Assembly: GCF_002119805.1 (NCBI RefSeq)
Contig: NZ_CP021059.1
Span: 2,108,001-2,172,000 of the forward strand
Origin: Macrococcoides canis
Lineage (GTDB): Bacteria; Bacillota; Bacilli; Staphylococcales; Staphylococcaceae
Direction: 5' to 3'
DNA length: 64,000 nucleotides
In this document: positions 20,874-40,801 of the stretch, piece after piece
Layout: each line of letters starts with the position of its first letter
How positions within the stretch are numbered: position 1 is the first letter of the stretch
Program-made: the position numbers and the translations under genes
The notes under the pieces: generated by a model
Told to the model about the DNA's origin: nothing
The model's database searches: none
Seen by the model: the letters and a program-made list of their open reading frames with translations, nothing else

Positions 20874-21077
20874 ATGCATAAATATATCGATGAGCAGGAT
20901 AAGAAGAAAACTTTAGATGAAATTAATGCAGAAATTGAAGCAGAACTTCAAAAAGAAGATACACAAAATATTAATGAAAAAAAAAGTAATAAAACTATTT
21001 TCAGTGTAGCTGGTATTATCACTTTTTTAATATTAGCTCGATTGATTTATCACATCATTCAATATTACTTCGTCTAG
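20874..21077 (+). CDS. Small single-pass membrane protein (67 aa), function unknown
   Basis: The frame starts at an ATG preceded by AAAGGATG, a reasonable ribosome site, and a likely extended -10 (TGTTAAAAT, about 20836-20844) lies upstream. The first 40 residues are strongly charged and helical (DEQDKKKTLDEINAEIEAELQKE). They are followed by one hydrophobic segment (residues about 43-62, TIFSVAGIITFLILARLIYH). The expected topology is an N-terminal cytoplasmic helix with a C-terminal anchor. A bidirectional terminator follows within 10 bp of the stop. It is the only plus-strand gene between nhaC and the metalloprotease. I do not recognise the family. Confidence 0.6.
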   Translation: MHKYIDEQDKKKTLDEINAEIEAELQKEDTQNINEKKSNKTIFSVAGIITFLILARLIYHIIQYYFV

Positions 21078-21161: not shown

Positions 21162-22598
21162 TTATATTTTTGCCAGTTCATCCGGTAACTCTTTTGCTAT
21201 TTCTGGGAACTTAGTATTTGTGACAGACGATTTAAGCAATATTAAAGAATCGTCATTAGCTAGCGTCAATAATCTAGTTAATAGCTCATTTTTCCCTTCA
21301 AACCACTCAACCTTTTTATTATTTATATTTTGATAAATATTTCTATATGGAGAGTCCATCAAGAGAATAATATCAGCATTACTACTCCCTAATCTTTCTA
21401 AAAGTTTAAGATGTATTTGCTCTTCTCTCTTACCTAAGTCACTAATTTGTCCTAAAGCTATAATCTTATTCCCTTGATAATATTTAGTTTGCGAATCAAA
21501 TGCTGATATAGCATTAATCATAGCAGGTAAAGAAGCGTTGTGTGTGTCATCTATTACAGTAACATTACCTCTACTATTATGAAATTCTTTTACTTCTAAT
21601 ACTTTATTAAATGGATTAAAGTCAGTAAGCTTCATAATTAAATTAGGAATATCCAAATTTAAAATTTGTAGGGTCAAGAGTACTGCAAGTGAGTTACTAA
21701 CCATCCCTTCACTCAATGTTTCTAATTTATATGAGATTTCCTCGTTTTTTTGGTTACTAGCATTTATTTCAGAAACTCCCTTTTTATATATCAATTTATT
21801 GATCTTTAGATTTTCAGTCCCATTCAAGCTATATTTATATACTTTGTCCGTATTAGATTTTGCTCGTTCTAGTAAAAATTGGCTATGTTCTGTATCCGTA
21901 TTAATAATTGCAGCACTTTCTGAATTTAACCCATCAAGTAGCCGTGCTTTATACTTAGCAACTTCTTGTGTCGTCGGAATTGTAGACAGATGAGCTGCAC
22001 CAATTCCAGTGATAATTGCAACATCCGGCGAAAGATTGAGTGACATATTCCCTCTATTATTAATAGCATTTATAGAGACTTCAAATAGTGCAAAGTCAGG
22101 GTTAGTTGCTAATTTACACATATTCAACATAATTACTGGTCGCGTATTGCTATTATTTCTATTTGCTAAAACGTTAAAATCTTCTAACGTTTTTTCAAGC
22201 ATTAATCTTGTAGAACTCTTTCCCATCGATCCTGTAATTGCGATTAATGGATTTTTGTAATTTAAACGTGCTTTAGCACCTATTTCTTTCATAGCTTCTA
22301 TACTATCTCTAACAATAATTTGTGGAATTTTATATTTTAAATTTGGTATATATTCTTCAGTAATAATTAGACCGATATTTTCAATTTGTGAATTTATCTG
22401 TTCATTTCCATCAATTATTTTAGATTTTCTACCATGAAACTTTTCCCATGTTCTATTCTTAATTGAGATAAATGCAGTATTTTTATTTTTAACGTAATTT
22501 ATATTATATTCAAAATCATTTATTAAATGATTACGTTTATTTTCTCCATCTACTAACCTGCCATTTAATAGGTAATGTAACGATTCAATATTAAACAA
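21162..22598 (-). CDS. MurF-like Mur ligase family protein (478 aa)
   Basis: This is an ATP-dependent amide ligase of the Mur superfamily, closest in layout to MurF. Seen: an N-terminal MurF-like domain (1 to about 105); the ATP P-loop ITGSMGKSST (about 119-128); EVSINAINNRG (about 173); the PDVAIITGIGAAHL box; a candidate carbamylated lysine in VAKYKARLLDGL (about 217); and the C-terminal DDTHNASLPAMINAI and LGQISDLGKREEQIH boxes matching MurF's DDSYNANP and LG-DM-ELG motifs. It starts with TTG 7 nt after the stop of the gene at 22605-24236 and shares its ribosome site with that gene's end, so the two are an operon. As it lies away from ddl/murF it is unlikely to be the housekeeping MurF. 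It may ligate an amino acid or peptide to another substrate. The substrate is unknown. Confidence 0.75.
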   Translation of the reverse strand: MFNIESLHYLLNGRLVDGENKRNHLINDFEYNINYVKNKNTAFISIKNRTWEKFHGRKSKIIDGNEQINSQIENIGLIITEEYIPNLKYKIPQIIVRDSIEAMKEIGAKARLNYKNPLIAITGSMGKSSTRLMLEKTLEDFNVLANRNNSNTRPVIMLNMCKLATNPDFALFEVSINAINNRGNMSLNLSPDVAIITGIGAAHLSTIPTTQEVAKYKARLLDGLNSESAAIINTDTEHSQFLLERAKSNTDKVYKYSLNGTENLKINKLIYKKGVSEINASNQKNEEISYKLETLSEGMVSNSLAVLLTLQILNLDIPNLIMKLTDFNPFNKVLEVKEFHNSRGNVTVIDDTHNASLPAMINAISAFDSQTKYYQGNKIIALGQISDLGKREEQIHLKLLERLGSSNADIILLMDSPYRNIYQNINNKKVEWFEGKNELLTRLLTLANDDSLILLKSSVTNTKFPEIAKELPDELAKI

Positions 22599-22604
22599 AG
22601 TTGA

Positions 22605-24236
22605 TCATCCTCTCTCCTGCCTATTCTTAAATACCTGTTGGTATTGAACAAAGCCAGATAAATAATGTTCTATATCATCAATTCTAACCCTATATCCATG
22701 ATGTTTTATAAAAAATCCATCTAATATTCTTTCAGGGTTTTTAAAATACATTGCTGTTTCAGGATAAAAGAAACCTACACGTTGATAATCAGCTCGTTTA
22801 TGAATAATTCTTAATAGTTTTTCTTCATCTATTAGTTGATCCACAAGTTCATTTAGGCCCTCCGACTTCGCTTTTTGTATTAAGTGATACGTGGCCATCA
22901 TCATTTCTAAAAATGTAGGAAAAGTAGTTTCTCTTTTTTCGATAAAATCTAACTGTCCTGCTGCGTTTCTAATCCCTAATTCGAAATATCGAACATCTGG
23001 ATTTAATTGAACGAGCTCATTTGTACAATAGCCAAGCCAATGATCATTATACTTCCAATAATTATGACTGATAAATTTTTCGAACATTTTTTCAACTAAT
23101 TCTAACCATTTTTTGTTTCCATCTATTTGATATAATCTCAGAAAAGCTAAAGCAGCTTCTCCATCATAATAAATAATTCTAAATTTTTCTTTAACTGATA
23201 AATTTGGATAGTTTAGTACATGAATCGTGTTTCCATGAATATCAATCATACTAGCCATACCATTAGCCACAAGTTGAGCAGCTTCTAAAAATTCTTGATT
23301 CTTATTAACTTTCAGATATTCACAAATTGCGAATATGAATGCAGCATTCTGTCCTAATTTAACTTCATTAATATTATTAGTATCATCAAAGATAAATCCT
23401 TTTTGTTCAATTTTCAATATATAATTATCTATTAAATATTTTAATGGTCGTTCAGCTATACTGATATCTTTTCCTGTATAATTCAATCCTTCAATTAAAG
23501 AATAAGTTGAAGATGCATGCCTAAGATTATTATAAAAACTTATTTTTCTATCGAAATGAGGAAAATAGCCATAATTGTACTTACCATTTTCATTAATTTC
23601 TCCTGCTAAATAATCAGTACTCTTTTCGATGAGTCTGTCTAATTCTTGTGAAATATTGTCTACCTGGCGCAAACCTTTTGCATATCCTTTTTCATTTAAT
23701 ATATATACCTTATCTTCCTCTAAAAAATATCCTTTTGTATAAAATCTTTTGACTCTTTTCCCAGTATATTTGTTACTAGAGAATGCATTTTTTTGATTTG
23801 TATACTTTAATAAATAGTGATTAATATTGGTTTCTGATAGCATTAACTTCCTTCCGGTTTTATCAGGTTTCAGAAATGCATTCGCATTAATCACTTCAGG
23901 TAAAAATGATAAATTCCACATGTCATCAAAAGCAATTCCATATTCAATATAATTTCGACGAGTATTGATCATCATTTTAACTAAATCATCAAAAAATATA
24001 TCTTCAACACTAGTAATAAGATCAAATTTAATCCATTCAGGTTGTCTTCTATTTTTTTTAATATATTTTTCTATATGATTTATAATATCTCTTTTTGCAT
24101 TATTTGTTTTTCTAAAGAATTTAATATCTGCTTTTGATTTTCTTGTCCCTATGCTTATATAAAAATTTCCTTTTATTACTCTATTGTCTTTTTCAATAGT
24201 ATTTAATAATTCATCAATTCTTTCTTCAAGTTTCAT
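22605..24236 (-). CDS. Conserved-looking cytoplasmic protein with alpha/alpha-barrel-like C-terminus (543 aa), function unknown
   Basis: First gene of a two-gene operon with the MurF-like ligase. AGGAGG stands 5 nt before the ATG. There is no signal peptide or membrane segment. The N-terminal ~170 residues are mixed alpha/beta (ISIGTRKSKADIKFF, PEWIKFDLITSVED). The C-terminal ~330 residues are a series of helix pairs (LRHASSTYSLIEGLNY, GQNAAFIFAICEYLK, YYDGEAALAFLRLYQIDGN, TTFPTFLEMMMATYHLI) resembling an (alpha/alpha)6 toroid as in glycosidases, epimerases or terpenoid-type barrels. The conserved-looking acidic and aromatic residues (YYDGEAA, FELGIRNAAGQ) may form an active site. I cannot name the family. 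Coupling to a Mur ligase suggests modification of a glycan or cell-envelope precursor. Confidence 0.65.
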   Translation of the reverse strand: MKLEERIDELLNTIEKDNRVIKGNFYISIGTRKSKADIKFFRKTNNAKRDIINHIEKYIKKNRRQPEWIKFDLITSVEDIFFDDLVKMMINTRRNYIEYGIAFDDMWNLSFLPEVINANAFLKPDKTGRKLMLSETNINHYLLKYTNQKNAFSSNKYTGKRVKRFYTKGYFLEEDKVYILNEKGYAKGLRQVDNISQELDRLIEKSTDYLAGEINENGKYNYGYFPHFDRKISFYNNLRHASSTYSLIEGLNYTGKDISIAERPLKYLIDNYILKIEQKGFIFDDTNNINEVKLGQNAAFIFAICEYLKVNKNQEFLEAAQLVANGMASMIDIHGNTIHVLNYPNLSVKEKFRIIYYDGEAALAFLRLYQIDGNKKWLELVEKMFEKFISHNYWKYNDHWLGYCTNELVQLNPDVRYFELGIRNAAGQLDFIEKRETTFPTFLEMMMATYHLIQKAKSEGLNELVDQLIDEEKLLRIIHKRADYQRVGFFYPETAMYFKNPERILDGFFIKHHGYRVRIDDIEHYLSGFVQYQQVFKNRQERG

Positions 24237-24320: not shown

Positions 24321-27300
24321 TTATTCTTCTTCTGCTTTTATTTCTTTTCTTTTTCTGAATAATAATAATCCACCTAATCCTGCAAATACTGTTGCAAGTA
24401 GACCACTATTATCTTTTTCACCTGTATCAGGTAACTCTTTAATTGCTTCACTTGGTTGTTCAGGTATTCCTGGCTGTTCAGGTGCCACTGGTTGCTCAGG
24501 TGTTCCTGGCTGTTCAGGTGCCACTGGCTGTTCAGGTGTTCCTGGTTGCTCAGGTGTTCCTGGTTGCTCAGGTGTTCCTGGCTGTTCAGGTGCCACTGGC
24601 TGTTCAGGCGTTCCTGGTTGCTCAGGTGTTCCTGGCTGTTCAGGTGTTCCTGGTTGCTCAGGTGTGACAAATCCGCTGTCGATTGTCATATTATCTTCTG
24701 TTCCCATAGTTACTTTAACAACATTTCCATCAGAATCTAATGCACTACCACCAACATGTATCAATGTAGGTTCCATTCCTTCTGGTGTTTCGAACGTCAC
24801 TGTATAGTCTCCTGGCTCTAGGTCTTCGAAGATATAGTTGCCGTTCTCATCTGTTGTTGTCGTCACTGTTGTTCCGTCTGCTTTCGTCAGGATCACTGTT
24901 ACGCCCGGGATACCTGGTTCATTCGCATCCTGTACGCCGTCCTTATCTTCATCGAACCATACTTTATCTCCTAAGTCCGGTAATTCTTTCACGAATCCGC
25001 TGTCGATCGTCATGTTGTCTTCTTTACCGATGGTAACCTTAACAACCTGACCGTCTGAATCTAATCCGTCATTACCTACATTTGAGATTGTTGGACCATC
25101 GTAACCTTCTGGTGTTTCGAACGTTACCGTATAGTCTCCTGGCTCTAGGTCTTCGAAGATATAGTTACCGTTCTCATCTGTTGTTGTCGTCACTGTTGTT
25201 CCGTCTGGTTTCGTTAAGATCACTGTTACGCCCGGGATACCTGGTTCATTCGCATCCTGTACGCCGTCCTTATCTTCATCGAACCATACTTTGTCGCCTA
25301 GGTCCGGTAATTCTTTCACGAATCCGCTGTCGATCGTCATGTTGTCTTCTTTACCGATGGTAACCTTAACAACCTGACCGTCTGAATCTAATCCGTCATT
25401 ACCTACATTTGAGATTGTTGGACCATCGTAACCTTCTGGTGTTTCGAACGTCACTGTATAGTCTCCTGGCTCTAGGTCTTCGAAGATATAGTTGCCGTTC
25501 TCATCTGTTGTTGTCGTCACTGTTGTTCCGTCTGCTTTCGTCAGGATCACTGTTACGCCCGGGATACCTGGTTCATTCGCATCCTGTACGCCGTCCTTAT
25601 CTTCATCGAACCATACTTTGTCGCCTAGGTCTGGTAATTCTTTCACGAATCCGCTATCGATTGTCATATTGTCTTCTTTACCGATGGTAACCTTAACAAC
25701 CTGACCGTCTGAATCTAATCCGTCATTACCTACATTTGAGATTGTTGGACCATCGTAACCTTCTGGTGTTTCGAACGTCACTGCATAGTCTCCTGGCTCT
25801 AGGTCTTCGAAGATATAGTTGCCGTTCTCATCTGTTGTTGTCGTCACTGTTGTTCCGTCTGGTTTCGTTAAGATCACTGTTACGCCCGGGATACCTGGTT
25901 CATTCGCATCCTGTACGCCGTCCTTATCTTCATCGAACCATACTTTGTCTCCTAGGTCTGGTAATTCTTTCACGAATCCGCTGTCGATTGTCGGGATATC
26001 CTTATCTCCAACTGTGATCGTCACCTTCGTACCATCTGAATCTTTCGTGTCATCACCTTGATTTGAAGTTGTTGGTGTATAACCATCCGGAGTACCGAAG
26101 TCAATCGTCACTTCACCTGGTGGTACATTAGGGAACTCATACTTACCATCTTCATCTGTCACTACAGTTTCTGTTGTGCCATCTGGATAAGTGATCGTTA
26201 CTTCAACACCTGGGATGCCCGGCTCATCTGGATCTTGTTGTCCGTCTTTATCCGTATCTTCCCATACTGTGTCTCCGACACTTACTCGGATGAATCCACT
26301 GTCGATCGTCATGTTGTCTTTAGTTCCCATCGTCACCTTAACAACCTGACCATCTGAATCTAACGCATCGTCTCCAACATTTGTGATTGTTGGGCCGTTA
26401 TAACCTTCTGGTGTGCCGAACGTCACTGTATAGTCTCCTGGCTCTAGGTCTTCGAAGATGTAGTTACCGTTCTCATCTGTTGTTGTTGTCACTGTTGTTC
26501 CGTCTGGTTTCGTTAACGTTACTGTTACGCCTGGGATACCCGGCTCATCTGTGCCCTGGATACCGTCTTTATTCTCATCGAACCATACTTTGTCGCCTAG
26601 GTCTGGTAATTCTTTGATGAATCCGCTGTCGATTGTCGGGATATCCTTATCTCCAACTGTGATCGTCACCTTCGTACCATCTGAATCTTTCGTGTCATCA
26701 CCTTGATTTGGAGTTGTTGGTGTATAACCATCCGGAGTACCGAAGTCAATCGTCACTTCACCTGGCGGTACATTAGGGAACTCATACTTACCGTCTTCAT
26801 CTGTCACTACAGTTTCAGTTGTTCCATCTGGATAAGTGATCGTTACTTCAACACCTGGGATGCCCGGCTCATCTGGATCTTGTTGTCCGTCTTTATCCGT
26901 ATCTTCCCATACTGTGTCGCCGACACTTACTCGGATGAATCCGCTGTCGATCGTCATATTGTCTTCAGTTCCCATCGTCACCTTAACAACCTGACCATCT
27001 GAATCTAACGCATCGTCTCCAACATTTGTGATTGTTGGGCCGTTATAACCTTCTGGTGTGCCGAACGTCACTGTATAGTCTCCTGGCTCTAGGTCTTCGA
27101 AGATGTAGTTACCGTTCTCATCTGTTGTTGTTGTCACTGTTGTTCCGTCTGGTTTCGTTAACGTTACTGTTACGCCTGGGATACCCGGCTCATCTGTGCC
27201 CTGGATACCGTCTTTATTCTCATCGAACCATACTTTGTCGCCTAAGTCTGGTAATTCTTTCACGAATCCGCTGTCGATCGTCATATCATCTGAATCGTTA

Positions 27301-30300
27301 ATCGTTACCGGTACGACAAGTCCGTCGGAGTCAAGTACGTCATCTCCACCTGTCGTGATCGTTGGACCATCATAACCGGCCGGCGTCTCGAACATCACTG
27401 TGTAATCACCATTCGGTAGATCTGTAAAGATATAGTTCCCATTCTCATCCGTTGTCGTTGTTACTGTTGTTCCATCTGGTTTCGTTAACGTTACTGTTAC
27501 GCCTGAAATTCCTGACTCATCTATGTCTTGAAGACCATCTTTATCTTCATCAAACCATACTTTATCGCCTATATTATATACTTTGTCGGCGTCAGCATCG
27601 GCATCGGCGTCAGCATCGGCGTCGGCGTCGGCGTCTGCATCTGCATCTGCATCCGCGTCGGCATCCGCGTCGGCATCCGCATCGGCATCCGCATCTGCGT
27701 CGGCATCCGCATCGGCATCTGCGTCTGCGTCTGCGTCGGCATCTGCGTCGGCATCGGCATCTGCGTCAGCATCCGCGTCTGCGTCGGCATCCGCGTCGGC
27801 ATCTGCATCTGCGTCGGCATCTGCATCAGCGTCAGCGTCGGCATCCGCATCAGCATCTGCGTCGGCATCTGCGTCGGCATCTGCATCAGCGTCAGCGTCA
27901 GCGTCGGCATCTGCGTCTGCGTCTGCGTCAGCGTCAGCATCCGCATCGGCATCTGCGTCAGCATCCGCGTCTGCGTCGGCATCTGCGTCGGCATCCGCAT
28001 CTGCGTCGGCATCCGCATCAGCGTCGGCATCCGCATCGGCATCTGCGTCAGCATCCGCGTCTGCGTCGGCATCCGCGTCGGCATCTGCGTCGGCATCCGC
28101 ATCAGCGTCGGCATCTGCGTCGGCATCTGCATCAGCGTCAGCGTCGGCATCTGCGTCTGCGTCTGCGTCAGCGTCAGCATCCGCGTCGGCATCTGCGTCT
28201 GCGTCGGCATCTGCGTCAGCGTCGGCATCCGCGTCAGCGTCAGCGTCGGCATCTGCGTCTGCATCGGCATCAGCGTCTGCATCGGCATCCGCGTCTGCAT
28301 CTGAGTCATCTAAAAAGTATCCTGCATCAATTGTCATATCATCTTTATCAATAATAGTTACAGTCACTCTGTTATTATCAGCAGAAATATCAGAGTCCAC
28401 TGAATCATTTCCAGCATTTGATGCAACTGGTGTTAAGCCATCTGGGTTAAGAAATTCAACTTGATAAGTCCCTGGTAATAATTCAGAAAATTCATAATAT
28501 CCTGTACTTGTTGTAGTAGTTGTTTTTAGAAAATTACCTGTCTCATCATATAAGTTTACTACTACGTTACTAATAGGTTGTTCAGCAGAATTTGTATTTT
28601 GGACACCATCGGTCTCTTGAGAATTCCCATCATACCAAACATAATTCCCAATTTTATATTGGTTACCCGAACCTGTTGAATCTCCTGAGAAGTTAGTTAT
28701 ATAGTTATCATTATATTCATTATACGTATAAACCGAATCATCATAGTTGATATTGTATAAAACTCTTCCTTCAGATGAAATTGAAGTTCCTTCAGTAACA
28801 GTTCTAATTAGATACGTTTGTCCGCCGTAAATAGCATTTCCAAAATTAATTGTTGCAGAATTTTCATCTGTATAATTGATAACAAAATTATTGGTAACAT
28901 TAGTAAGGGTACTTAAATCCGGATCAAAACTATCAACTACTGCGCTATCTGGCATAGCATATATTTGTATGGATGTATTATCTTTAAAATTTAAGTTAGT
29001 AAAATCTACTGTTACAGTTGCATTCCTTACATCAGAAATATTAGAGGTATTAATGTACTCATTATGTACATATGCACTTCCGTCTTGTTCATAATAATCC
29101 CAAAATCCAGACATTAGCTTAGGTTCATATCCGTAATCAACCATTATTGGTTCTGAATGATTTTCACCAGCAACATTAATATTAACAGGGTAGTTAGTTC
29201 GTTGATCCGTCATTGTAGAACGAGTCGGGAAAAATGGATGTGAAATACTACCATTAACATTCGCACGATTATCAACATAATCTGTAAATGTATATACAAT
29301 AGTATTTGTTGCTTGATCATAACTTGCTTTAGCAATTAGTTCACCATTTACATCTTTAAAATCTACTAAGGAAGGAGGACTTTCCAATCCACCTGGTTGA
29401 GTATATTGATCAAATTGAATAGTAAAATAGTCGCCTGCTTGTACTGCATCATCAATTGTAAAATCTGAATTTAACATTAAATAACCGTTCGACGTAATCC
29501 ATGCTGGTTCAGTTGGATCATTAGTGTCTGGATTTACAGCATTTGTAGTAATATTAGTCGCAGTTACCAAATCATTAACATTTGTTTGTACCCCATCTAA
29601 AGTATTATAAGTCGTCGTATCTAAATTCCCTAAAGTGATAGACTTCATCATACTTGTATTGCTTGTTGTTGATACTGGCGTTGCAAGTACTGTTTTAGCA
29701 TCCTGTTCGTTTGCGATCGCAAGTAACATCTCAGCCATAAGTTCTTCTGAAGTCAAGTTTGTGTAATCGATGTTCAGTGATTCTACTGCTAACTGTGCTT
29801 CCTCTGCAGTCACACCTGTATTCTCTGCATAGTAGTTAACTAATACGTCTTGCTTCTCTGCTTCTGATGTTAACGTATTTAATTGTTCTGTTGTTTTAGT
29901 GATTGATTCTGTTGTCGGCGCAACAGTAATATTCGTAGTTTGCTCTTCAGTCGTGATTTCCTTTGTTGTTGGTGCTTCTGTGGTTGATGCTTCTGTTGTC
30001 GCTGCTTCTGTTGTTGGCGCTTCTGTTGTCGGCGCTTCTGTTGTCGCTGCTTCTGTTGTCGCTGCTTCTGTTGTTGGCGCTTCTGTTGTCGGCGCTTCTG
30101 TTGTTGGCGCTTCTGTTGTCGGCGCTTCTGTTGTCGCTGCTTCTGTTGTTGGTGCTTCTGTTGTCGCTGCTTCTGTTGTTGGCGCTTCTGTTGTTGGGGC
30201 TTCTGTTGTTGGCGCTTCTGTTGTTGGGGCTTCTGTTGTTGGCGCTTCTGTTGTCGGCGCTTCAGTTGTTACGCTTGGTTTTGTTTCTTCTGCTGCATTT

Positions 30301-30437
30301 GCCTCACTCGGGTTACCAAGAAACATTAATGATCCGATTAAGATTGATGATGTCCCTACTGTAAACTTTCTTATCGAGTATTTATTAAGGCGGTTGGCGA
30401 TGAAATCATAGCGTTTGTTATTAGGTTTTTTCTTCAA
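24321..30437 (-). CDS. LPXTG adhesin with 10 SdrD-B repeats and a central Asp-Ala repeat (2038 aa)
   Basis: This is a sortase-anchored Sdr-like protein. The preferred start is the TTG at 30435-30437, 7 nt after GGAGG; an upstream ATG at 30476 would add [13 protein letters not shown] in front of the signal and would place the candidate operator inside the gene. Parts: YSIRK signal (to about 45); TTEAP repeats (about 57-169); a helical module with [20 protein letters not shown] (about 177-262); [17 protein letters not shown]; an A-like head (to about 590); one B repeat (about 592-705); an uninterrupted Asp-Ala dipeptide tract of 239 residues (about 712-950); nine further B repeats (to about 1924); a PEQPGT stalk; then [11 protein letters not shown] (about 2000), a helix and an RKRKE tail. 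Classical Sdr proteins have Ser-Asp next to the wall, so a mid-protein Asp-Ala tract is unusual. Head and signal are close paralogues of the 3548-residue adhesin. Confidence 0.88.
24665..27580 (-). repeat. Nine SdrD-B type repeats, wall-proximal block of the Asp-Ala adhesin
   Basis: Units alternate between a [16 protein letters not shown] type and a [17 protein letters not shown] type, then four consecutive [16 protein letters not shown] units with a period of about 327 bp. The two-unit block near 26290-26620 and 26940-27270 is repeated almost exactly, which indicates a duplication of a pair. Confidence 0.85.
27585..28301 (-). repeat. Asp-Ala dipeptide repeat tract (717 bp)
   Basis: 239 codons alternate GAY and GCN without interruption. 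All four Ala codons and both Asp codons are used, so the DNA is a degenerate 6-bp array, unlike the near-identical B repeats. The alternative frames on both strands are stop-free only because of this composition. Confidence 0.95.
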
Positions 30438-30460
30438 ATTATTCCCTCCAGATATGTAAT

Positions 30461-30480
30461 TCGAATGATAAATCATTCGA
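30461..30480 (-). promoter_or_regulatory. Operator-like palindrome upstream of the Asp-Ala adhesin
   Basis: An inverted repeat has arms TCGAATGAT (30461-30469) and ATCATTCGA (30472-30480) around a 2-bp centre, 24-43 bp upstream of the TTG start. Its right arm continues into ATTCGACATTT, the motif present twice upstream of the 3548-residue adhesin gene. It could be a repressor site or a leader hairpin. Confidence 0.5.
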
Positions 30481-30732: not shown

Positions 30733-32058
30733 TTATGTTTTAATAATATCCAGTGCTCCATTAAACATCTCAACACTCACTTCATTCGCCTGCGATTTTT
30801 GCTTTTTCAGGGCTGTTTCTTTCTCCTTGTTATTCATATGCAAGTATTCAAGCAATAAATCAGGTTCTCTTTCGCTTACTAACATTGCATTATTCGTATA
30901 TGTGACATTATGTACTGTTTCCTTATATCCCATAATGAGGTGATCGTAGTCATACGCACTTCTTACTGCATTCATAATTTCATTTCCTTGATTAATATCA
31001 AGATAAATATCCGCCGCTTCATAAAGTTGTCGTGCTTTATTGAGTTCTACTGAAGGATAGAGTTTAACATTTTTATACTTGCCAAGATTCATAAGCTTCG
31101 ATGACATCTCTGTAATCGCAGCAATAGTAAATGTATAGTCAGGACTATTTTTTATAATGTGCTCTACATGTGGAAGCTGATCGGAATTTGTCATTGTCAG
31201 GACATTCTTTGTAAATGTATTTTTACGGTGATATTGATATAGATATCCTGACTGTTTTATTTTATGACGCAATTCTTTTTTCGTAAGCGTTGTGATACGT
31301 GCGTATTCTAACTTATTGGGTACAATTACTTTGAATGACAGATGATTATTTGATTCAAGTATCGAGACCATATTCCCTGGTAGTGCATCTTGGACTTGCT
31401 CTTGCCAGAAGAGATATCCATGTGTTCTTTGCTTTCTGTTGTAGATTGCAATAAGTGGTAACGACAGGGAGTTAAAGATAATTTTCGATGTATCGACATT
31501 CAGCTGATCAATAAAATAAGTGATAAATTCTGCTTTATTACTAAATATATATTCCTTGTCATCAAGTGTCAGCATGATGCTACCCGTAATATAGTTTTCA
31601 TAGATAACTACTTTACCTTCTTTTGTGAAGTATGTTTTCATTATCGACTTGCCATGAATGTCATTTACCGTCTGTGCAAATCTCAATCCATGTTTCGTAT
31701 AGTGATCAATATACCTGACGTTATTGTTATCACCTAACCACTCAACGCGTTCTACGATACGCGATTTGTAATTCATCTTATAGATGATATTGGCTTTCGT
31801 TCTTCCATTATCTTTAATGTGCGCCTCGCTATTATTCCCATCAATCTCCCAGTATTTCGGTTTCTTGACTGCGTTGAAATATAATGCTTTCGTCGGTTCA
31901 GGATGATAGTGTGCAAAGTAACGGTAAGGAGTAATGATATTATCTGGTAGAAATCCGTCGTCTTCAATGACAATTGTAGGATGGTTGTTGCCAGCTAACT
32001 GCAAAGATTGATAAAGTTCTGCAGAAGGCAAATTAAAATATTCAAATAGATTAATCAT
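30733..32058 (-). CDS. gtfB: Accessory Sec glycosylation partner GtfB
   Basis: GtfB is the chaperone-like partner of GtfA. Together they form the O-GlcNAc transferase that starts glycosylation of Ser/Thr residues on the serine-rich repeat protein in the cytoplasm, with GtfB recognising the polypeptide acceptor. The sequence (MINLFEYFNLPSAELYQSLQLAGNNHPTIVIEDDGFLPDNI...) has the N-terminal features of GtfB proteins and lacks a nucleotide-sugar motif. I start it at the ATG at 32056-32058, which overlaps the gtfA stop as ATGA and has GAGGTGATAG just upstream; a start at 32088 would lie inside gtfA without a ribosome site. At 441 residues it matches the family. It is the last gene of the locus and is followed by a terminator. 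Confidence 0.9.
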   Translation of the reverse strand: MINLFEYFNLPSAELYQSLQLAGNNHPTIVIEDDGFLPDNIITPYRYFAHYHPEPTKALYFNAVKKPKYWEIDGNNSEAHIKDNGRTKANIIYKMNYKSRIVERVEWLGDNNNVRYIDHYTKHGLRFAQTVNDIHGKSIMKTYFTKEGKVVIYENYITGSIMLTLDDKEYIFSNKAEFITYFIDQLNVDTSKIIFNSLSLPLIAIYNRKQRTHGYLFWQEQVQDALPGNMVSILESNNHLSFKVIVPNKLEYARITTLTKKELRHKIKQSGYLYQYHRKNTFTKNVLTMTNSDQLPHVEHIIKNSPDYTFTIAAITEMSSKLMNLGKYKNVKLYPSVELNKARQLYEAADIYLDINQGNEIMNAVRSAYDYDHLIMGYKETVHNVTYTNNAMLVSEREPDLLLEYLHMNNKEKETALKKQKSQANEVSVEMFNGALDIIKT

Positions 32059-33566
32059 CCTATCACCTCTTCTACTAAATCTCTCCATTTTTGTTTAATG
32101 TATTGCTCTTTAAAAGGTTCTGCAATTTCATATGACTTTTGTGCGACAGACTCCAGATTCATATTATAGAAATCAATGATGCGCTCTGCAAAACGGTCTG
32201 TTAATGTTTCTATCGATGCTTCTGTTAACTCAGCTGGCAATAAAAATCCATTATAACCGTCATGAATAAATGTTGGATTTCCATATTCAACGTCAAATCC
32301 AATCATGCCAAGCCCTGAAGCTACAGCTTCTAATAGTGTTAATCCAAACCCTTCGCTTTGAGAAGCTGAAAGGAATAGCTCGTACTTGCTATATACTTGG
32401 TCAAGATTGACATGTCCACGCAATCGAATATATTGATTTGCATCAAAAGTATCGATGACTTCTTGAATCTTCTGCTTTTCCACACCTTCTCCATATATAT
32501 CAAATGTGAGTTCTGGAATATGTTGCTTTGCTTTAACAACTGCTCGAACCAGCCAGTCCACATGTTTCTCATTTGCAAGACGCGACGCTGTGATAATCGA
32601 ATACGGAGTGCGTGTTTCTGTGGGATACGTTAATTCTTCAACTGCACCAACTGGAATCGGATATATCTTCGGTTGTTTGTCATAGTAATGTTTGAATTGT
32701 TCACTAAGTATTTCTTGCTGGCGCTTTGTAGCAGTAATAAAGAAATCTATATCATTTGCCTGTGCGAACTGATATTCATAATAGTTGTTCCATAGGATAT
32801 CATCTTTCGTTGTTGCATTCTTACTAAAATGTTCTGCATGAACGACCACGCCCACTTTACTGTCACCTTTATTTTCCATCACTGCTTGTCCAATGTTCGT
32901 CGCTCTATCTACAATCAGTATATCTTCAGATGATAGTTGTAATGATTGAAGGAAGTATGCAACAAATGCACGCTTTCCATATAGTGGCGTATGGTTAATG
33001 ACATAAAGACTCTCCTCATGATCGTTTCCGAGATATTCTTCATATGCAATCGTGCCGTCTTCATTATAGAATTGCCTCATATACGCGTTGGCACGATTGT
33101 TCTCAGGAGCATAATATTCAGACATAAATCTGACATACGTATAGAAGTCCTTTCTTATCAGCATACCATCTGATACAAATTCAGCACGATCAACGATATC
33201 TGTTCCTGCAGTTTTTAAATAACATGTAACAAATGTATTGTGATTTTTGAAGAATATACGTTTGACTTTGCCATTTTCTTCTACTTTAATTACTTCTTCT
33301 GTCAACGTCTCAATAATATCCGACACTTTATATGTTGTTGGTGCGATTTTAATATCTGTGAAATGTTGATACAGCCAAATAATCTCATCATCTTTAAATC
33401 CTATATTGTGCGTCAATGTCTGTATATTCTCATTTTGGATAAAATCAAGAAACACAAACTTCTTCGTCTGTTCTAGATCACGTAGTAACTTCGCGCGATA
33501 GCTCTGTGCATATTCTACACCACTACTCGCCCAACCAATGCCAAAGTTAATATTATATATCGTCAT
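32055..33566 (-). CDS. gtfA: Accessory Sec glycosyltransferase GtfA (GT4)
   Basis: GtfA is a cytoplasmic GT-B glycosyltransferase that transfers GlcNAc from UDP-GlcNAc to Ser/Thr of the SRR adhesin, in complex with GtfB. The N-terminus, MTIYNINFGIGWASSGVEYAQSYRA, is the GtfA signature. The C-terminal half has the GT4 pattern, including SIITASRLANEKHVDWLV (about 323) and the E-x7-E motif EGFGLTLLE (about 406). At 503 residues it fits the family. It lies 10 bp after secA2 and overlaps gtfB by 4 bp, which supports coupled translation and stoichiometric GtfA-GtfB. Confidence 0.95.
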   Translation of the reverse strand: MTIYNINFGIGWASSGVEYAQSYRAKLLRDLEQTKKFVFLDFIQNENIQTLTHNIGFKDDEIIWLYQHFTDIKIAPTTYKVSDIIETLTEEVIKVEENGKVKRIFFKNHNTFVTCYLKTAGTDIVDRAEFVSDGMLIRKDFYTYVRFMSEYYAPENNRANAYMRQFYNEDGTIAYEEYLGNDHEESLYVINHTPLYGKRAFVAYFLQSLQLSSEDILIVDRATNIGQAVMENKGDSKVGVVVHAEHFSKNATTKDDILWNNYYEYQFAQANDIDFFITATKRQQEILSEQFKHYYDKQPKIYPIPVGAVEELTYPTETRTPYSIITASRLANEKHVDWLVRAVVKAKQHIPELTFDIYGEGVEKQKIQEVIDTFDANQYIRLRGHVNLDQVYSKYELFLSASQSEGFGLTLLEAVASGLGMIGFDVEYGNPTFIHDGYNGFLLPAELTEASIETLTDRFAERIIDFYNMNLESVAQKSYEIAEPFKEQYIKQKWRDLVEEVIG

Positions 33567-33575
33567 ACTTGCCTC

Positions 33576-35963
33576 CTACGGAAAATGTACAATCATATTT
33601 CCATCTTTATCATATGTTATCATACTCAGCGCCAGATTTCTGACGATGTCTTCTTTAATACGTTCTCCCATCACTTTATATGAATTTAAAGCAGTGCGAT
33701 GATACTCGAAGACGGCATTTCTTCGTCCCATCTGTCGATTATTCATACTGGAACGTAGTTGCTGCAAGTAGTCTACTTGTTCAATCCAGTTTTTATCTAT
33801 TGCTTTTAATAACGATTTTTGAATGTATTGTACATAAAAAAATTCATTGTCGAACTGTGCTTTCTGTAATTTAAGCTGTTCCATAAATAGCTCAGTCAAA
33901 AATGTTACACATTGCTCTGAATCGTTGATAATAGAGGGTGCTATATCTTGCTCAAATTGAAACCTGATGTTTCTATAGATATACTGTTTTAATTGCCTCT
34001 CGGTAAGTTTGTCTTGTGTTTTCACATAGGAAGCAATTACATCGCTTGCCACTTTCTTAAAATCAAAATGATCGAAGTTGTCGGATTTCAAAATTAAATC
34101 TCTTTGAGCATATATCATCTTTCTCTGCTTACTCACACTTTGCTCAAATTCATTATTCATCTGACGTGCGATCATCCCATGTTCTTCAGATACAACTTGC
34201 GCTTTCTCAACGATACTTTCGATTTTCTTCATCAATAGCTTACTATCACGAATACGCCATTCATCGAAATCATGAATACGCTTATTATTTAATAAGCTGT
34301 TATCACTCCAGCGCTTAACAAGATAATCCTCTAAAGAAATATATATCTGCGAACTTCCTGGATCACCTTGGCGACCTGATCTTCCTCTCAATTGGCGATC
34401 GATACGGCTGTTCTCCATATGTTCACTGATAATAACAGCTAAACCTCCAAGCATTCTGACGCTTTCACTAAGTTTAATATCTGTTCCACGCCCTGCCATA
34501 CTTGTTGCAACAGTTACATTCGATAATTGTCCAGCTTCTGCTATCATCTGAGCTTCTTTCGCTACATTTTGTGCGATGAGTAAATTATTCGGTATATTCA
34601 AAGCAGACAAGCGTTCAGAAAAGAATTCCGCATCTTCAGCTGTACGCGTTATCAAAAGTAATGGTCGTCCAGTTTTATGTATCATGAGGACGTCTTTCAA
34701 CAATGCTTTATGCTTCTGCTGTTTACTGATAAACACGCGGTCCGGCAGATCCTTCCTGATGACTGGGCGATCTGTCGGTATTTGTACGACAACTTTTCCA
34801 TACAGTTCAAAAAACTCTTTCTCACCTAGTTTACTCGTTGCACTCATACCAGAAAAAGCTTTAAACTGCTGAAATAAGTTTTGAAAGGTTATTGTTGCCA
34901 TCACACTCATATCATTACTAATTTCTAAGTTTTCTTTAGCCTCTATTGATTGATGCAACCCAGATTGAAGTTTCGTACCCGGAAGAAGGCGGCCTGAAAT
35001 GCGATCAATCAACACAATTTCGCCATCATTTACATAGTAATCAATATTTAAATCAAACATACATTTTGCTCTCAGGGCTAAATTGATATTGCGAACGAGC
35101 GCAGTATGCTTCCCATCATACATATCTTCTATATCAAAATATGTGTTGCTTGCTAAAATACCCTCTTCCGTCAAATAAACTTCCTGCTGCTGTTTATCCA
35201 CTTTAAAGTGCAGCTCTTCTTGCAGAGTATCTGTTAGCTCTTTAACTACATTAAATAAGTTCGATTGTACACGCGGTGCACCACTAATCACAAGCGGTGT
35301 TTGAGCAGCATCCAGGATAATCGAATCAATCTCATCAATAATGCAGAAATTGAAGGGCTTAAGAAACTTTCCGTTTAAATTGTCAGCTAAATTATCAATT
35401 AAATAATCAAAACCAATACGACCATTCGTTGAATAGATGATATCAGCATCATAAAGTGCTTTTTTTTCGCCTTTTTTGTACTCATGGCCAGGGATATCAA
35501 CAAATCCTAAAGAAGCGCGCAGACCTAACCATTCGAATAACGGTTTCATCTCTTCATAATCTCGTCGTGCTAAATAATCATTCGTCGTAATAAGGTATGC
35601 ACCTTCGCCTAAAATACCGTTCAAATACAGCGGCATTGTGGCAGTTAACGTCTTTCCTTCACCAGTCTGCATTTCAGCGATATTACCTTGATGCATAACA
35701 ATTGCTCCCATGACCTGCACATCTTTAGGGTACATACCAAGTACACGCTCACTCGCAATACGCACTACAGCGTAACTTTCAGGTAACAGGGCCTCTAACG
35801 TTTCACCGCGCTTCAAACGTGTTCTGAATTCTTCTGTCTTAAGTTTTAATTCTGTATCTGACAATGATTTAAAAGTTTCACTAAAGTGATTAACTCGGTT
35901 TAATATCCGCTTGAGACCTTTGATTCGGGTATTATTAATCGTCTGTTCTACCACCTGTTTCAT
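33576..35963 (-). CDS. secA2: Accessory Sec translocase ATPase SecA2
   Basis: SecA2 is the motor ATPase that drives export of the glycosylated SRR protein through SecY2. Seen: Walker A in [16 protein letters not shown] (about residue 97); Walker [19 protein letters not shown] (about 205); the helicase boxes [14 protein letters not shown] (about 490) and [24 protein letters not shown] (about 530); and the preprotein cross-linking region between them. At 795 residues it is slightly shorter than housekeeping SecA and lacks the zinc-binding C-terminal tail, as expected for SecA2. It sits in the asp3-secA2-gtfA order of staphylococcal sraP loci. An AGGTGACA ribosome site precedes its ATG. Confidence 0.97.
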
Positions 35964-35977
35964 GTGTCACCTCCAAC

Positions 35978-36445
35978 TTACAAATAGCTTTGTATATCAA
36001 TCTCGTCTGAATATACCGAAATTTGCGCTCCAGTTATTACAATGGATTCAAAGTTCATATGCTGAACTGCAGCACTCATCATGTGAATCGTGTAACTATA
36101 ATAATCATCAGGCACTTCAACCTGTATTTCTCGTTCTTGGACAACCTTGGTTTCTATTAAAGTTTCATTACGTCGATAAAACGAAATTTTGAAATATACA
36201 CTTTGCTTTGGCACCGCTTCGTAGTTAAAGTAAAATGTATATCTCTTATTTCTTTTAAGAAAAGGTAGGTCAGGTGCAGTCTTCTCGCTATAATAATCTG
36301 CTGTCATACGCCATTCATTCAGCACTATTCCCGCAGGTGTCTGATGATTTGTGAACTGTACTACAGAACCTTTTTTGATAACCGAACCATACATAAAAGC
36401 ATGATTTAAACTTTTCCACTTCACTATAAAGTTTTGACTATTCAC
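35978..36445 (-). CDS. asp3: Accessory Sec system protein Asp3
   Basis: Asp3 is a component of the Asp1-Asp2-Asp3 complex that binds SecA2 and the adhesin and is needed for export. The 155-residue product has no signal or membrane segment and is predicted to be all-beta (FIVKWKSLNHAFMYGSVIKKGS, RYTFYFNYEAVPKQSVYFKISFYRR). This matches the carbohydrate-binding-module-like fold known for Asp3. It lies directly after asp2 (1 bp apart) and 14 bp before secA2. Length agrees with the family. Confidence 0.9.
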   Translation of the reverse strand: MNSQNFIVKWKSLNHAFMYGSVIKKGSVVQFTNHQTPAGIVLNEWRMTADYYSEKTAPDLPFLKRNKRYTFYFNYEAVPKQSVYFKISFYRRNETLIETKVVQEREIQVEVPDDYYSYTIHMMSAAVQHMNFESIVITGAQISVYSDEIDIQSYL

Positions 36446-36446
36446 A

Positions 36447-37982
36447 TTATCCTCTCCCGAACTTGCTTTGCATCAATATTTTGTAGAAGTTAATAAACCA
36501 ATTATTAATCGTCGGTGAGTCATCATTATGACGTCCTGGTATGCCTCTGCTGATGACTTTAGCATGATGGCGACTTAATACCTCCAGTAATTCATCAAAT
36601 GCAAATAGGTCATAGTCATCATCTTCCATATAACATATCGCAAATGTTGTCTTTTCAATATCATGTTGTTCAAATGTATTCCAGAATTTATCATTCAGCA
36701 TCCTTACATGTGCATCACTTGTACCACCAGTGTTTGTCAGCAATACATCAAGCGCCGTTCCAAACTCTTCTGGACGCAGCAATTTCATATTCGCGCCAAT
36801 TGTGCCAACATTCACTAACGGTTTACCGACAATCACTGCACTTGGATTGAGTTTAGCCCCATAATAAATCGCACCGAAAGAACCCATTGATAATCCGGAT
36901 AATATTAATTCGTGTTCATCAAAATTCAAATATTCGAGTGCATCTTTAATCACTTTTTCAATCATCGCTTCATATTGATCAGAGCCGAGGTAGAAACTGC
37001 CACCTTCTATTCTTGGATCGCCAATCAGTATGAACGGGGCACCAAGCTTTTGCATCATAAAATAACCTTCAAATCCTTCAGCGGGGCGATATCCAGAAAA
37101 ATAGACATTAAGCGGTGGTTTCATATCTCCTGGATGAAACAAGTAGATGAACTCATCGCGATTATTATCACTGTAACGATTTCCGCCAAGAAGGAATTCT
37201 CCAAATTCAAGACGTGACCAGCGACGATGTATAACGCCGAGCGACAGCTTTCCTTTACCTTTTGCTTTTACACTTACAGCAACATAACCATCTTCTGTCA
37301 TCATCGGTCTGATAATCGGCTCATTGAACGCACTGCTTAAAACTGTGAATGTTTCCATTAATGTTTCTACAGTTCCACCTTTATAGACTCTGAACGTATA
37401 TTCCAGCTCTACACCTTCTACTTTAAATTCTGGCCATAGTTCAAGCGCATGATTGCGTTCGTAATAGAGCAGTTTAGATAATGAAGCTACCGGTAAGAAT
37501 TCTGTACCAAAGTCGCCTTCACAATAAAGCCACTTGTTACCCAGGAACTTTGATTGAACCTCTGACATCGGATGTACTTCCCAAGCTTCAACGCCAATTT
37601 TGTCTCCATATTGACCGTTGTAACAGATTGTCTTCAACTTCTCTATGTAATGTGCTTCATCGTCTGCATTAACAGGTAACGCAAAATTTCTTTTTATCGT
37701 TTCGTCCGCTTCATACTGAGGATAATAAGCGCCTTTAATATATAAATTAAAAGGTGCTGCCACGCTTTTAATCACCCGCATTAAATTCTCGCTATAAGGT
37801 GCTTCAACTAGTACAAAATTATATGCTTTTTGAGCATCGATGAATTTAATAATTTCATCCATCATCCCATCGTCCTGATAGACAAAGTTAGCATCCAGAA
37901 AATCGAGGTGAATTTGTGGTGTACTTAAAGTTGTCTCAAGCGACGCTTGTCCTATCTGCAGTATCCTAAATTTTCGAACCAT
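36447..37982 (-). CDS. asp2: Accessory Sec system protein Asp2 (putative O-acetyltransferase)
   Basis: Asp2 is required for export of the SRR protein and in streptococci also O-acetylates its GlcNAc residues. The alpha/beta-hydrolase nucleophile elbow is present as LSGLSMGSFGAIYYGA, with Ser near residue 363, and a late His in GIPGRHNDDSPT (about residue 488) fits the catalytic triad. So the enzyme is probably active. The start at 37982 has AGGAG 7 nt upstream and overlaps the end of asp1 by 17 bp. At 511 residues it has the family length. Confidence 0.93.
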   Translation of the reverse strand: MVRKFRILQIGQASLETTLSTPQIHLDFLDANFVYQDDGMMDEIIKFIDAQKAYNFVLVEAPYSENLMRVIKSVAAPFNLYIKGAYYPQYEADETIKRNFALPVNADDEAHYIEKLKTICYNGQYGDKIGVEAWEVHPMSEVQSKFLGNKWLYCEGDFGTEFLPVASLSKLLYYERNHALELWPEFKVEGVELEYTFRVYKGGTVETLMETFTVLSSAFNEPIIRPMMTEDGYVAVSVKAKGKGKLSLGVIHRRWSRLEFGEFLLGGNRYSDNNRDEFIYLFHPGDMKPPLNVYFSGYRPAEGFEGYFMMQKLGAPFILIGDPRIEGGSFYLGSDQYEAMIEKVIKDALEYLNFDEHELILSGLSMGSFGAIYYGAKLNPSAVIVGKPLVNVGTIGANMKLLRPEEFGTALDVLLTNTGGTSDAHVRMLNDKFWNTFEQHDIEKTTFAICYMEDDDYDLFAFDELLEVLSRHHAKVISRGIPGRHNDDSPTINNWFINFYKILMQSKFGRG

Positions 37983-39489
37983 GACTTACTCCTTTTGTAA
38001 AAGCATCAATCTGGTCGATAATATTTCTAGATGAATATTTCTGAACCAGTTGCAAAGAATGTGTAAATGCTGCATTCCAATGTTTAAGCTGCTTCAAATA
38101 ATAATCAACCCCTTCAAATATCGATTGATTATCTGGAATGATATAACCATTTTCTTTATGTTTTACGTAATCTGTCTCAATAATATTGATTTGTGGGACA
38201 CCTGCACTTATCGCTGAGATTTGAAGATATAGATCAGGCTCATCATTGATATCAATTATAATTCTTAATTGTGACATGACTTGAACAATGTTTATCTCAA
38301 AAGGGATGTATTCGAACTGAATCACTTCTTTTTCAATAATTTCTTTATCCTTTAAATCTTCAAAGTCATCTTCCATTTCAATAAACTTTTGATTAATCGC
38401 AGCAATTTGCTGCCACAGTGCCTCACTTCTGTTGCCTTTATGAAAGCGCGATAGAAGTTTCAATCTATATTTATTAGATTTCCCGATATACAGTTCAAAC
38501 AAGTCTATTAGTTTCTGTAGATAAAGATCTTCAATCCCATCGATGAGTATACCGATATAATTTACGTAAAGCTGGCTGCTGACTGACGGTATAAATTCTG
38601 CATCAAATGGTGTAACTCTCAATAAATCATGAGAGTGCCCTAAACTTTGTAGTCTATTCATATTCTTTACTGTATCTACAATGATTCTTGGGCTATGCTG
38701 CACAGTGTTGATCCACGCTTCATCAATCTTTGTATTTCTTTTCTGAAAGACTGAAAACGTCATTCGCTCTGAAGAAATACTACGAGCAATCAACTGATTA
38801 TGTCTATTATCTGCTGCAACGATGAAATGGTCGTCTTCTGCGAAAACTAATTTACTTAGTTGATAAGCAATCAATTCATCCATAGACGTATATAGTTTAC
38901 GGTCAAACTTATGAAAATCAGCTTTTATTTCCACCATGGTTGTAGCTGTGTTTTCAGTCATTATGATTATCCCTTGCGCATTTAAATAGTGGATGAGCGT
39001 GGATTCACCTGTGAAATCCACAATACTGGATAAATAACCTCTATCATCAAAGACGAGCCGCTTTAACAGCTGCTCTTGATGGTAACGCTCCATCCATACA
39101 AGATAGCCTTCCTGGTTATAGTATATTTTCGTTTCTGTATCTTTATAAAATGCTTTAACAATAAATGAAGTATGTACAAACTCCGTTTCTCTCGGCCATT
39201 GCATCTTCCTGTAATCTAATGGTTTAGGTGTAACAGCATCAAATCCTTGCAACGCGTCAAACAAAGACCAGTAGTTTGTATTCATCAATTGATTGCGATG
39301 CAAAAATAACCGCAAACTAGAATCATAATTCAATACGATAAGTCGATGATCTTCTCCAATTTTTTGATGCATATTCATCATGCTTACAATATCATCGAAT
39401 TCACTTTGTTTACTTTTAGAATAGAATGGCTCATTGCGATCATGCCACCAAACTGTTTCAGAATACCATGCTGGAATAAAATATTTCAT
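37966..39489 (-). CDS. asp1: Accessory Sec system protein Asp1
   Basis: Asp1 is a glycosyltransferase-fold protein without known catalytic function that forms the core of the Asp complex. It begins MKYFIPAWYSETVWWHDRNEPFY, the recognisable Asp1 N-terminus, and ends with a GT-B-like C-terminal region (RIIIDINDEPDLYLQISAISAGVPQINIIETDYV). At 507 residues it has the typical length. It lies 10 bp downstream of secY2 and overlaps asp2. Confidence 0.92.
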   Translation of the reverse strand: MKYFIPAWYSETVWWHDRNEPFYSKSKQSEFDDIVSMMNMHQKIGEDHRLIVLNYDSSLRLFLHRNQLMNTNYWSLFDALQGFDAVTPKPLDYRKMQWPRETEFVHTSFIVKAFYKDTETKIYYNQEGYLVWMERYHQEQLLKRLVFDDRGYLSSIVDFTGESTLIHYLNAQGIIIMTENTATTMVEIKADFHKFDRKLYTSMDELIAYQLSKLVFAEDDHFIVAADNRHNQLIARSISSERMTFSVFQKRNTKIDEAWINTVQHSPRIIVDTVKNMNRLQSLGHSHDLLRVTPFDAEFIPSVSSQLYVNYIGILIDGIEDLYLQKLIDLFELYIGKSNKYRLKLLSRFHKGNRSEALWQQIAAINQKFIEMEDDFEDLKDKEIIEKEVIQFEYIPFEINIVQVMSQLRIIIDINDEPDLYLQISAISAGVPQINIIETDYVKHKENGYIIPDNQSIFEGVDYYLKQLKHWNAAFTHSLQLVQKYSSRNIIDQIDAFTKGVSHGSKI

Positions 39490-39498
39490 AATCTCTCC

Positions 39499-40722: not shown

Positions 40723-40761
40723 GTTAAACCTCATCATTTGCAATTTGATTTTATAACTTAA

Positions 40762-40801
40762 ATTATAGCACAGGCACAAACACAGATTGTGTTTGTGCCT
40801 G
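40762..40801 (-). promoter_or_regulatory. Hairpin without U-tract plus extended -10 of the secY2 operon
   Basis: A perfect 14-bp stem (40771-40784 with 40788-40801, arm CAGGCACAAACACA) begins 16 bp after the glycoprotein stop codon. On the minus strand it runs straight into TGCTATAAT (40762-40770), a consensus extended -10, rather than into a T-run. It therefore looks like a combined RNA stabiliser or weak terminator for the adhesin mRNA and a start site for secY2, about 40 bp before the secY2 ATG. Confidence 0.55.

Follow-up and report, generated by a model that had tools for sequence, protein, structure and literature searches.

A candidate adhesin-stalk modification unit, pairing a MurF-like ligase with a two-domain toroid protein, in Macrococcoides canis and other bacteria

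Why should a ligase of the Mur family be encoded beside surface adhesins? The question arises in a 64,000-nucleotide (nt) stretch of the Macrococcoides canis genome (contig NZ_CP021059.1, positions 2,108,001 to 2,172,000; hereafter the window, whose numbering is used for all coordinates not assigned to another genome or locus). Here, a first-pass annotation had noted a MurF-like ligase paired with a 543-amino-acid (aa) protein that it could not place, and had suggested that the two make an envelope polymer or an alternative wall precursor. Both genes are present in the window, and the gene directly upstream of them encodes a large adhesin:

22605-24236, minus strand: protein A, 543 aa, the core of the module; residues ~1-190 are predicted to form an AMMECR1-like alpha/beta domain and residues ~192-541 an (alpha/alpha)6 toroid
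21162-22598, minus strand: protein B, 478 aa, TTG start; a MurF-like Mur ligase with Pfam and NCBIfam matches
24321-30476, minus strand: presumed substrate, a YSIRK/LPxTG Sdr-type adhesin of 2051 aa, directly upstream of A, with an (Asp-Ala)n run at aa 723-964

In the reading that we consider probable, A and B work together in the cytoplasm to modify the (Asp-Ala)n stalk of this adhesin. Of the candidate substrates, it is the adhesin rather than the wall that has the best support.

The adhesins linked to A have in common a repeat run built of Asp-containing dipeptides, either (DA)n or (SD)n, that can exceed 1200 aa. When 92 A loci were inspected in a six-frame check, a run of this kind (xD, with x the variable position) in the same sense as A was found in 73, mostly in the gene directly upstream; it was present in 47 of the 60 loci having at least 6 kb of upstream sequence. 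Among the large adhesins of the window that were checked, only the one immediately upstream of A has an xD run, and the places listed for a (DA)8 pattern in the window genome lie in that same gene. Across 108 genomes of the family, counted without regard to phylogeny (as are all co-occurrence counts here), the (DA)8 coding pattern occurred in 26, and 26/26 carry A compared with 56/108 overall (Fisher p = 1e-9). In a class sample of 300 genomes, A was carried by 11 of the 13 genomes with a non-microsatellite (DA)8 pattern; genomes G151 and G341 had been set aside because they also match the reversed control or are perfect hexamer microsatellites. The two exceptions, G169 and G256, have the pattern in Lys-rich open reading frames (ORFs) with no evident signal peptide or LPxTG motif. 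These long Ala-Asp repeats (G256, L089:8156-10726; G169, L090:2713-3591) have no A nearby and represent a different use of the repeat. The association between A and the repeat is strong; the chemistry is inferred.

A is the core of a widespread mobile adhesin-linked module in Bacillota and Proteobacteria. In all, 518 relatives were found across 84,980 species genomes, of which 80 were kept with their flanks. By tblastn, A was also found in 54 plasmid records, at 30-60% identity across most of its length, in Staphylococcus, Listeria, Enterococcus, Agrobacterium, Rhizobium, Sulfitobacter, Nitratireductor, Variovorax, Acinetobacter and Klebsiella. The usual position of A in Bacillota is immediately after a gene for an LPxTG adhesin, with a sortase gene next in many Bacillus-type loci; A in Proteobacteria often closes a TolC/adhesin/HlyB/HlyD (type I secretion) operon. 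The A-Mur pair is itself conserved across Firmicutes and, unexpectedly, Proteobacteria, and it recurs in Gram-negative Nitratireductor in the order adhesin-TolC-HlyB-HlyD-A-murF. In class-wide samples, full-length A was found in 1 of 321 Gammaproteobacteria genomes (with three further partial, toroid-only relatives) and 1 of 385 Alphaproteobacteria genomes; since the sole full-length case was the genome used as the centre of the sample, A is sporadic, and often plasmid-borne, in those two classes. Distant toroid-only relatives in the class of Klebsiella (L096 and L097, from genomes G471 and G521; frames of 366 and 663 aa, E 1e-25 to 1e-43) could reveal the ancestral reaction. Some Gram-negative loci encode, after A/GT4 or A/Mur, apparently secreted proteins of ~310-350 aa (L004:15101-16057, L075, L077, L078, L087:13946-15010), for which no Pfam match was found. 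An anti-phage role for the module was rejected: neither A nor B matched a PADLOC model at E<=0.001, the viral_contigs set held no relative of A, and the eight matches in phage collections were all Listeria, Acinetobacter or faecal contigs resembling host DNA.

The Mur ligase is an optional partner of A. A B-type ligase was found in 30 of the 108 family genomes, and all 30 carry A (p = 1.6e-11), while A stands without such a partner in Listeria and many Bacillus. Partners may be fused to A or to one another. A and Mur form a single protein in Agrobacterium and Halomonas, A, CapA and Mur are joined in two Microbulbifer loci (including L079), and A is fused to a GT4 glycosyltransferase in Klebsiella and on an E. 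coli plasmid. One to three ATP-grasp partners of the YheCD/GSH/RimK type also occur (three are fused to A in Agrobacterium CP048491), as do an ATP-grasp+Mur fusion in Methylobacter (L077) and Ddl together with Mur in three Bacillaceae loci and the sister species G001 (Ddl neighbours in L047, L049, L050 and L091).

The kind of partner was compared with the composition of the repeat. The fraction of Ser plus Thr at the variable position was 0.88-1.0 in nine loci with GT4 only, with medians of 0.03 in 31 loci with a ligase only and 0.06 in 45 loci with neither (GT4 versus ligase, p = 6e-6; GT4 versus neither, p = 6e-5). The GT4 loci span separate lineages, namely Enterobacteriaceae, Staphylococcus and Oceanobacillus/Gracilibacillus. 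Three plasmids checked later also fit the rule: an S. epidermidis plasmid has a pure SD repeat and a glycosyltransferase adjoining A, the E. coli ET210 plasmid has an SD repeat and A fused to a glycosyltransferase, and S. aureus pWBG759 has an Ala-richer mix and a Mur ligase. GT4 is found only with Ser-rich repeats; a partner acting on the repeat should show this restriction, since a glycosyltransferase would need serine. The ligases, for their part, are compatible with Ala repeats. Asp-Ala repeats lack hydroxyl groups and so offer only the carboxylates of Asp as reactive side chains; to judge from known enzymology, this would suit carboxylate-activating ligases.

Protein A matched no family above cut-off in Pfam or NCBIfam and had no convincing sequence relative among solved structures. 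Its AlphaFold2 model, built from 66 aligned sequences, had a predicted local distance difference test score (pLDDT) of 95.6 and a predicted template modelling score (pTM) of 0.93. The alpha/alpha-barrel likeness proposed earlier applies to residues ~192-541; a structure search pointed to an N-terminal AMMECR1-like domain that had been overlooked. The best match of the toroid was to cellobiose 2-epimerase 3vw5 (Z 29.0; VIA, 317 residues, root-mean-square deviation (rmsd) 2.8), the best Foldseek match was 5zhb (E 6.6e-7), and profile comparison with the AGE family gave an hhalign probability of 86% (E 4.9e-6). Nonetheless, A was rejected as a true AGE epimerase, since the fold agrees but the score against Pfam PF07221 (13.9 bits) does not reach the gathering score of 23.4. 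In a single low-identity alignment, the catalytic His of the AGE GHDIE motif falls on Gln296 of A (LGQNA), which makes an epimerase reaction doubtful. Among the residues that are invariant in A are R239, H240, E249, E291, K293, H339, Y357, D398, H399, E407, E444, R481, E493, R516, R518, D520, D521 and H524; the set is highly charged and may mark an active site that binds an anionic substrate.

Residues ~1-190, when predicted alone (pLDDT 93.9), gave as top fold matches 1zq7 (Foldseek E 4.1e-3) and 1vaj (Z 7.1, 150/194 residues, rmsd 3.9), with the next rows at Z 5.5. Both entries are AMMECR1-family proteins, and the N-domain of A may have a fold of this type. The Pfam AMMECR1 family was not matched by the window's N-domain, nor was it among the 25 families shown for 53 N-domains at E<=1. 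We know of no biochemical function assigned to AMMECR1. Public records of stand-alone A (WP_216514709.1, WP_014930977.1) are labelled 'poly(glycerol-phosphate) alpha-glucosyltransferase'. This function was rejected for A, which has no glycosyltransferase domain; neither A nor B matched a glycosyltransferase profile in Pfam or NCBIfam. The name suits only the fused A+GT4 proteins, from which it was probably carried over.

Protein B keeps the Mur motif set and is not in a cell-wall synthesis locus, as the first-pass annotation had claimed, and it is distinct from the housekeeping MurF. It matched Mur_ligase_M (E 3.6e-27, 96.1 bits, cut-off 24) and Mur_ligase_C (E 1.5e-12, 48.9 bits, cut-off 28.4). 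Its P-loop (ITGSMGKSS), KYKARL lysine region and DDTHNAS box align with the genome's own MurF, and G123, K127, E173, H203, K217, D351 and N354 are invariant between the two, which are 22-25% identical overall. The nearest NCBIfam model is MurF (TIGR01143; E 1.4e-58), at 198.8 bits against a curated cut-off of 288.6. In the 2.36-Mb single-contig genome, the housekeeping murF lies directly beside ddl (G000:C1:2043463-2044566), ~85 kb from the pair; the sub-cut-off score and this separate ddl-murF locus rule out B as the housekeeping enzyme. B was likewise rejected as a cyanophycin synthetase (cya_phycin_syn, 37.3 bits versus a cut-off of 850), and it contains no ATP-grasp domain. One relative of B that is paired with A is 48% identical to it. 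Most staphylococcal relatives carry a C-terminal extension of ~200 aa that B lacks; examples from A-linked Mur ligases are L008:18025-18669, L047:5005-5637 and L091:9432-10064. The extension is collinear with S11 DD-carboxypeptidases, a weak likeness (4k91, E 0.67; hhalign 42%, E 2.7e-4), and has TIEG in place of SxxK; it appears to be a degenerate DD-carboxypeptidase-like domain, a likeness on which no weight was placed.

These data are consistent with the following mechanism. Protein A, as the core enzyme, would recognize or modify the Asp-dipeptide repeat in the cytoplasm, while the adhesin is freshly synthesized and has yet to fold, carrying out a first step at or near Asp. Because A is common to Ala-Asp and Ser-Asp systems, the invariant Asp is its most likely site. 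B would be a tailoring enzyme, one of several kinds that can stand in for each other. As other Mur ligases do, it would use ATP to activate a carboxylate as an acyl phosphate, either that of the Asp side chain itself or that of a group placed there by A, and would join an amino acid or short peptide to it through an amide bond. The modified adhesin would then be exported (by Sec here, by type I secretion in Gram-negative bacteria) and anchored. With many of its acidic side chains capped, the stalk would differ in charge, stiffness, calcium binding, hydrophobicity and protease resistance. As to what is attached, the MurF ancestry, the Ddl neighbours and the degenerate extension (absent in the window) hint at a D-amino acid or dipeptide; as no second Ddl was found in the window genome, the system there would draw on D-Ala-D-Ala from the housekeeping pool or on another amine. 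More tentatively, the system may be a ribosomal counterpart of cyanophycin, in which A and a MurF-derived ligase attach amino acids or, where Ddl is present, D-amino-acid dipeptides to the Asp side chains of poly(Asp-Ala) by amide bonds. If so, a ligase would for the first time be seen to decorate a surface adhesin, an AMMECR1-type domain would gain its first biochemical role, and branches ending in D-Ala-D-Ala could let wall transpeptidases cross-link the adhesin.

Several observations weigh against modification of the stalk by A and B. No xD run was found in the available flank of 19 of the 92 A loci, some of which end at a contig boundary and some of which do not, and the A loci are phylogenetically correlated. 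Several loci have their Mur gene on the opposite strand or three to seven genes off. The repeats of ligase loci do not differ in composition from those of loci with neither partner (p = 0.98), so that the rule linking partner to repeat was positively tested only for GT4; moreover, the Ser-rich locus L091 carries a Mur ligase, Ddl and GT2. We also weighed other explanations. A and B might leave the protein untouched and make a small donor, such as an amino-acylated sugar or a dipeptide-carrying precursor, for transfer to the adhesin by a different enzyme. The toroid's resemblance to sugar 2-epimerases and uronate-acting enzymes would fit such a role, as would the GT2/GT4 and Ddl neighbours of some loci and the action of normal Mur ligases on UDP-sugars. 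We nevertheless think it unlikely, as the partnerless A loci of Listeria and many Bacillus show no obvious adjoining transferase, and elsewhere A and its partners are fused together within the adhesin's own secretion operon. It is more doubtful still that A serves specifically to chaperone the very acidic repeat during export or folding, in the manner of GtfB and the Asp proteins for SraP, with a separate role for Mur. A chaperone could go with every kind of partner and with both Sec and type I export, and could do without a partner, as A does; but the fold of A is that of an enzyme, charged residues in it are invariant at many positions (e.g., K293, H399, E407, D520, D521 and H524), and A is fused to catalytic ligase or glycosyltransferase domains and is present wherever the Mur ligase is found.

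The envelope polymer or alternative peptidoglycan precursor proposed in the first-pass annotation fared poorly, and we regard it as improbable. MurF ancestry, Ddl in the four loci named above, CapA in Microbulbifer and the degenerate extension on many of the Mur ligases all speak for a wall product. Against it, the tie to xD-repeat adhesins is strict: most A loci have such an adhesin, within type I secretion operons in Gram-negative bacteria. A also occurs without Mur, or with GT4 or ATP-grasp enzymes instead, and no polymerase, flippase or wall-polymer exporter is linked to it, save for the CapA-like domain fused in the two Microbulbifer loci. Finally, we give almost no credence to B being a simple duplicate of the housekeeping MurF; although MurF is its best profile match, that score falls short of the TIGR01143 cut-off, the ddl-murF pair is present elsewhere, and B-type genes are confined to A-positive genomes.

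Within the window, A and B are separated by 6 nt, and the Shine-Dalgarno-like ggagagagg of B lies within the end of A; the translational coupling suggested by the first-pass annotation is plausible on these two grounds. That annotation had also recognized the adhesin neighbourhood, in which it overlooked the (DA)n repeat directly upstream and a small membrane protein. Two further features adjoin the pair:

20874-21077, plus strand: small membrane protein, 67 aa, convergent with B, with an EINAEIEAEL motif and one C-terminal transmembrane helix
9495-20153, minus strand: neighbouring YSIRK/LPxTG adhesin with SdrD-B-like repeats and no xD dipeptide run; probably not a substrate

Look-alikes of the 67-aa protein adjoin A in at least 13 staphylococcal loci (L012, L014, L020, L024, L025, L029, L034, L035, L038, L091, L110, L113 and L114). 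They are 56-93 aa long, with the motif I(N/D)xEIEAEL and a single C-terminal transmembrane helix, and the protein may be a further accessory part of the module. Also adjoining the A/B region is a separate, known adhesin glycosylation and export system: an accessory Sec locus (30733-40779 and 40818-49472, both minus strand) with a 2884-aa serine-rich adhesin, SecY2, Asp1, Asp2, SecA2, GtfA, GtfB and a 155-aa ORF at the Asp3 position. Between two adhesin genes, a 494-aa protein (49788-51272, plus strand) weakly matches the C-terminal part of thermolysin-type metalloproteases.

The claim of an undescribed pathway survived searches of the literature and of family libraries. No description of A or of the A-Mur pair was found in the open-licence literature, where absence is not proof, and the module as a unit is in no family library. 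The A/B kit is apparently undescribed, and its core enzyme family uncharacterized, within a setting (repeat-directed modification of adhesins) that is already known. If A acts in stalk modification, a large family currently mislabelled as glucosyltransferases would gain a function, and E. coli would offer a direct test of what an AMMECR1-like domain does biochemically. To our knowledge, no modification of adhesin stalks other than by sugars has been reported, and the proposed one would be a new kind of surface-protein decoration. It would concern adhesins with Asp-Ala or Ser-Asp stalks, which are tied to biofilm formation and attachment (e.g., staphylococcal ClfA/Sdr and Paracoccus BapA).

Among known systems, the closest comparison is with SdgB and SdgA, which put N-acetylglucosamine on the Ser residues of SD repeats in staphylococci, where it guards against host proteases and forms a dominant antibody epitope (PMC3794999). 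Those enzymes, too, are encoded beside Sdr adhesins and modify an xD stalk, and the GT4 partner that A has at other loci, only with Ser-rich repeats, is of the same broad enzyme class. In contrast, the window pair has no GT4, its ligase partner is of the Mur type, and the SdgA/SdgB system has no counterpart of A; because an Asp-Ala stalk offers no serine to glycosylate, the site must be a different one. With MurF, its nearest subfamily, B shares the P-loop, the central and C-terminal domains and the DDxxNAS box, and some A loci add Ddl as in the housekeeping ddl-murF pair; the B-type ligases differ in their sub-cut-off scores, their context and their frequent fusion to A or to the degenerate DD-carboxypeptidase-like domain. 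A shares its (alpha/alpha)6 toroid with AGE/cellobiose 2-epimerases (PF07221), from which it differs in scoring below cut-off, in the apparent replacement of the first catalytic His, in its extra AMMECR1-like domain and in its invariant residues. Both top fold matches of the N-domain are AMMECR1 proteins, at a Z of only 7.1 and with no Pfam match. Cyanophycin synthetase and poly-gamma-glutamate ligases apply Mur and ATP-grasp chemistry to Asp or Glu carboxylates, and the ATP-grasp+Mur and A+CapA+Mur fusions among the partners of A recall them; here, however, the Asp backbone would come from the ribosome as a secreted protein, and no ligase would polymerize it.

Two adhesins already on record have the same kind of stalk. 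In Listeria monocytogenes (L005), A lies directly behind a (DA)n LPxTG adhesin gene, and the pair is presumably lmo1799-lmo1798. For Lmo1799, 226 Ala-Asp repeats have been reported (PMC8687577). BapA of Paracoccus denitrificans, which is secreted by a type I system (BapBCD) and needed for biofilm formation, has 891 Asp-Ala repeats; at 212 kDa it migrates above 300 kDa in gels. Modification was a possibility that its authors were unable to rule out, and they questioned how hydrophobicity could come from Asp-Ala repeats (PMC5588039). No modification enzyme has been described for the Paracoccus system. By analogy, the anomalous mobility of BapA hints, as an independent pointer, at modification of Asp-Ala stalks, and ligase chemistry on serine-free stalks could explain both the anomalous mass and the hydrophobicity of such adhesins (PMC5588039).

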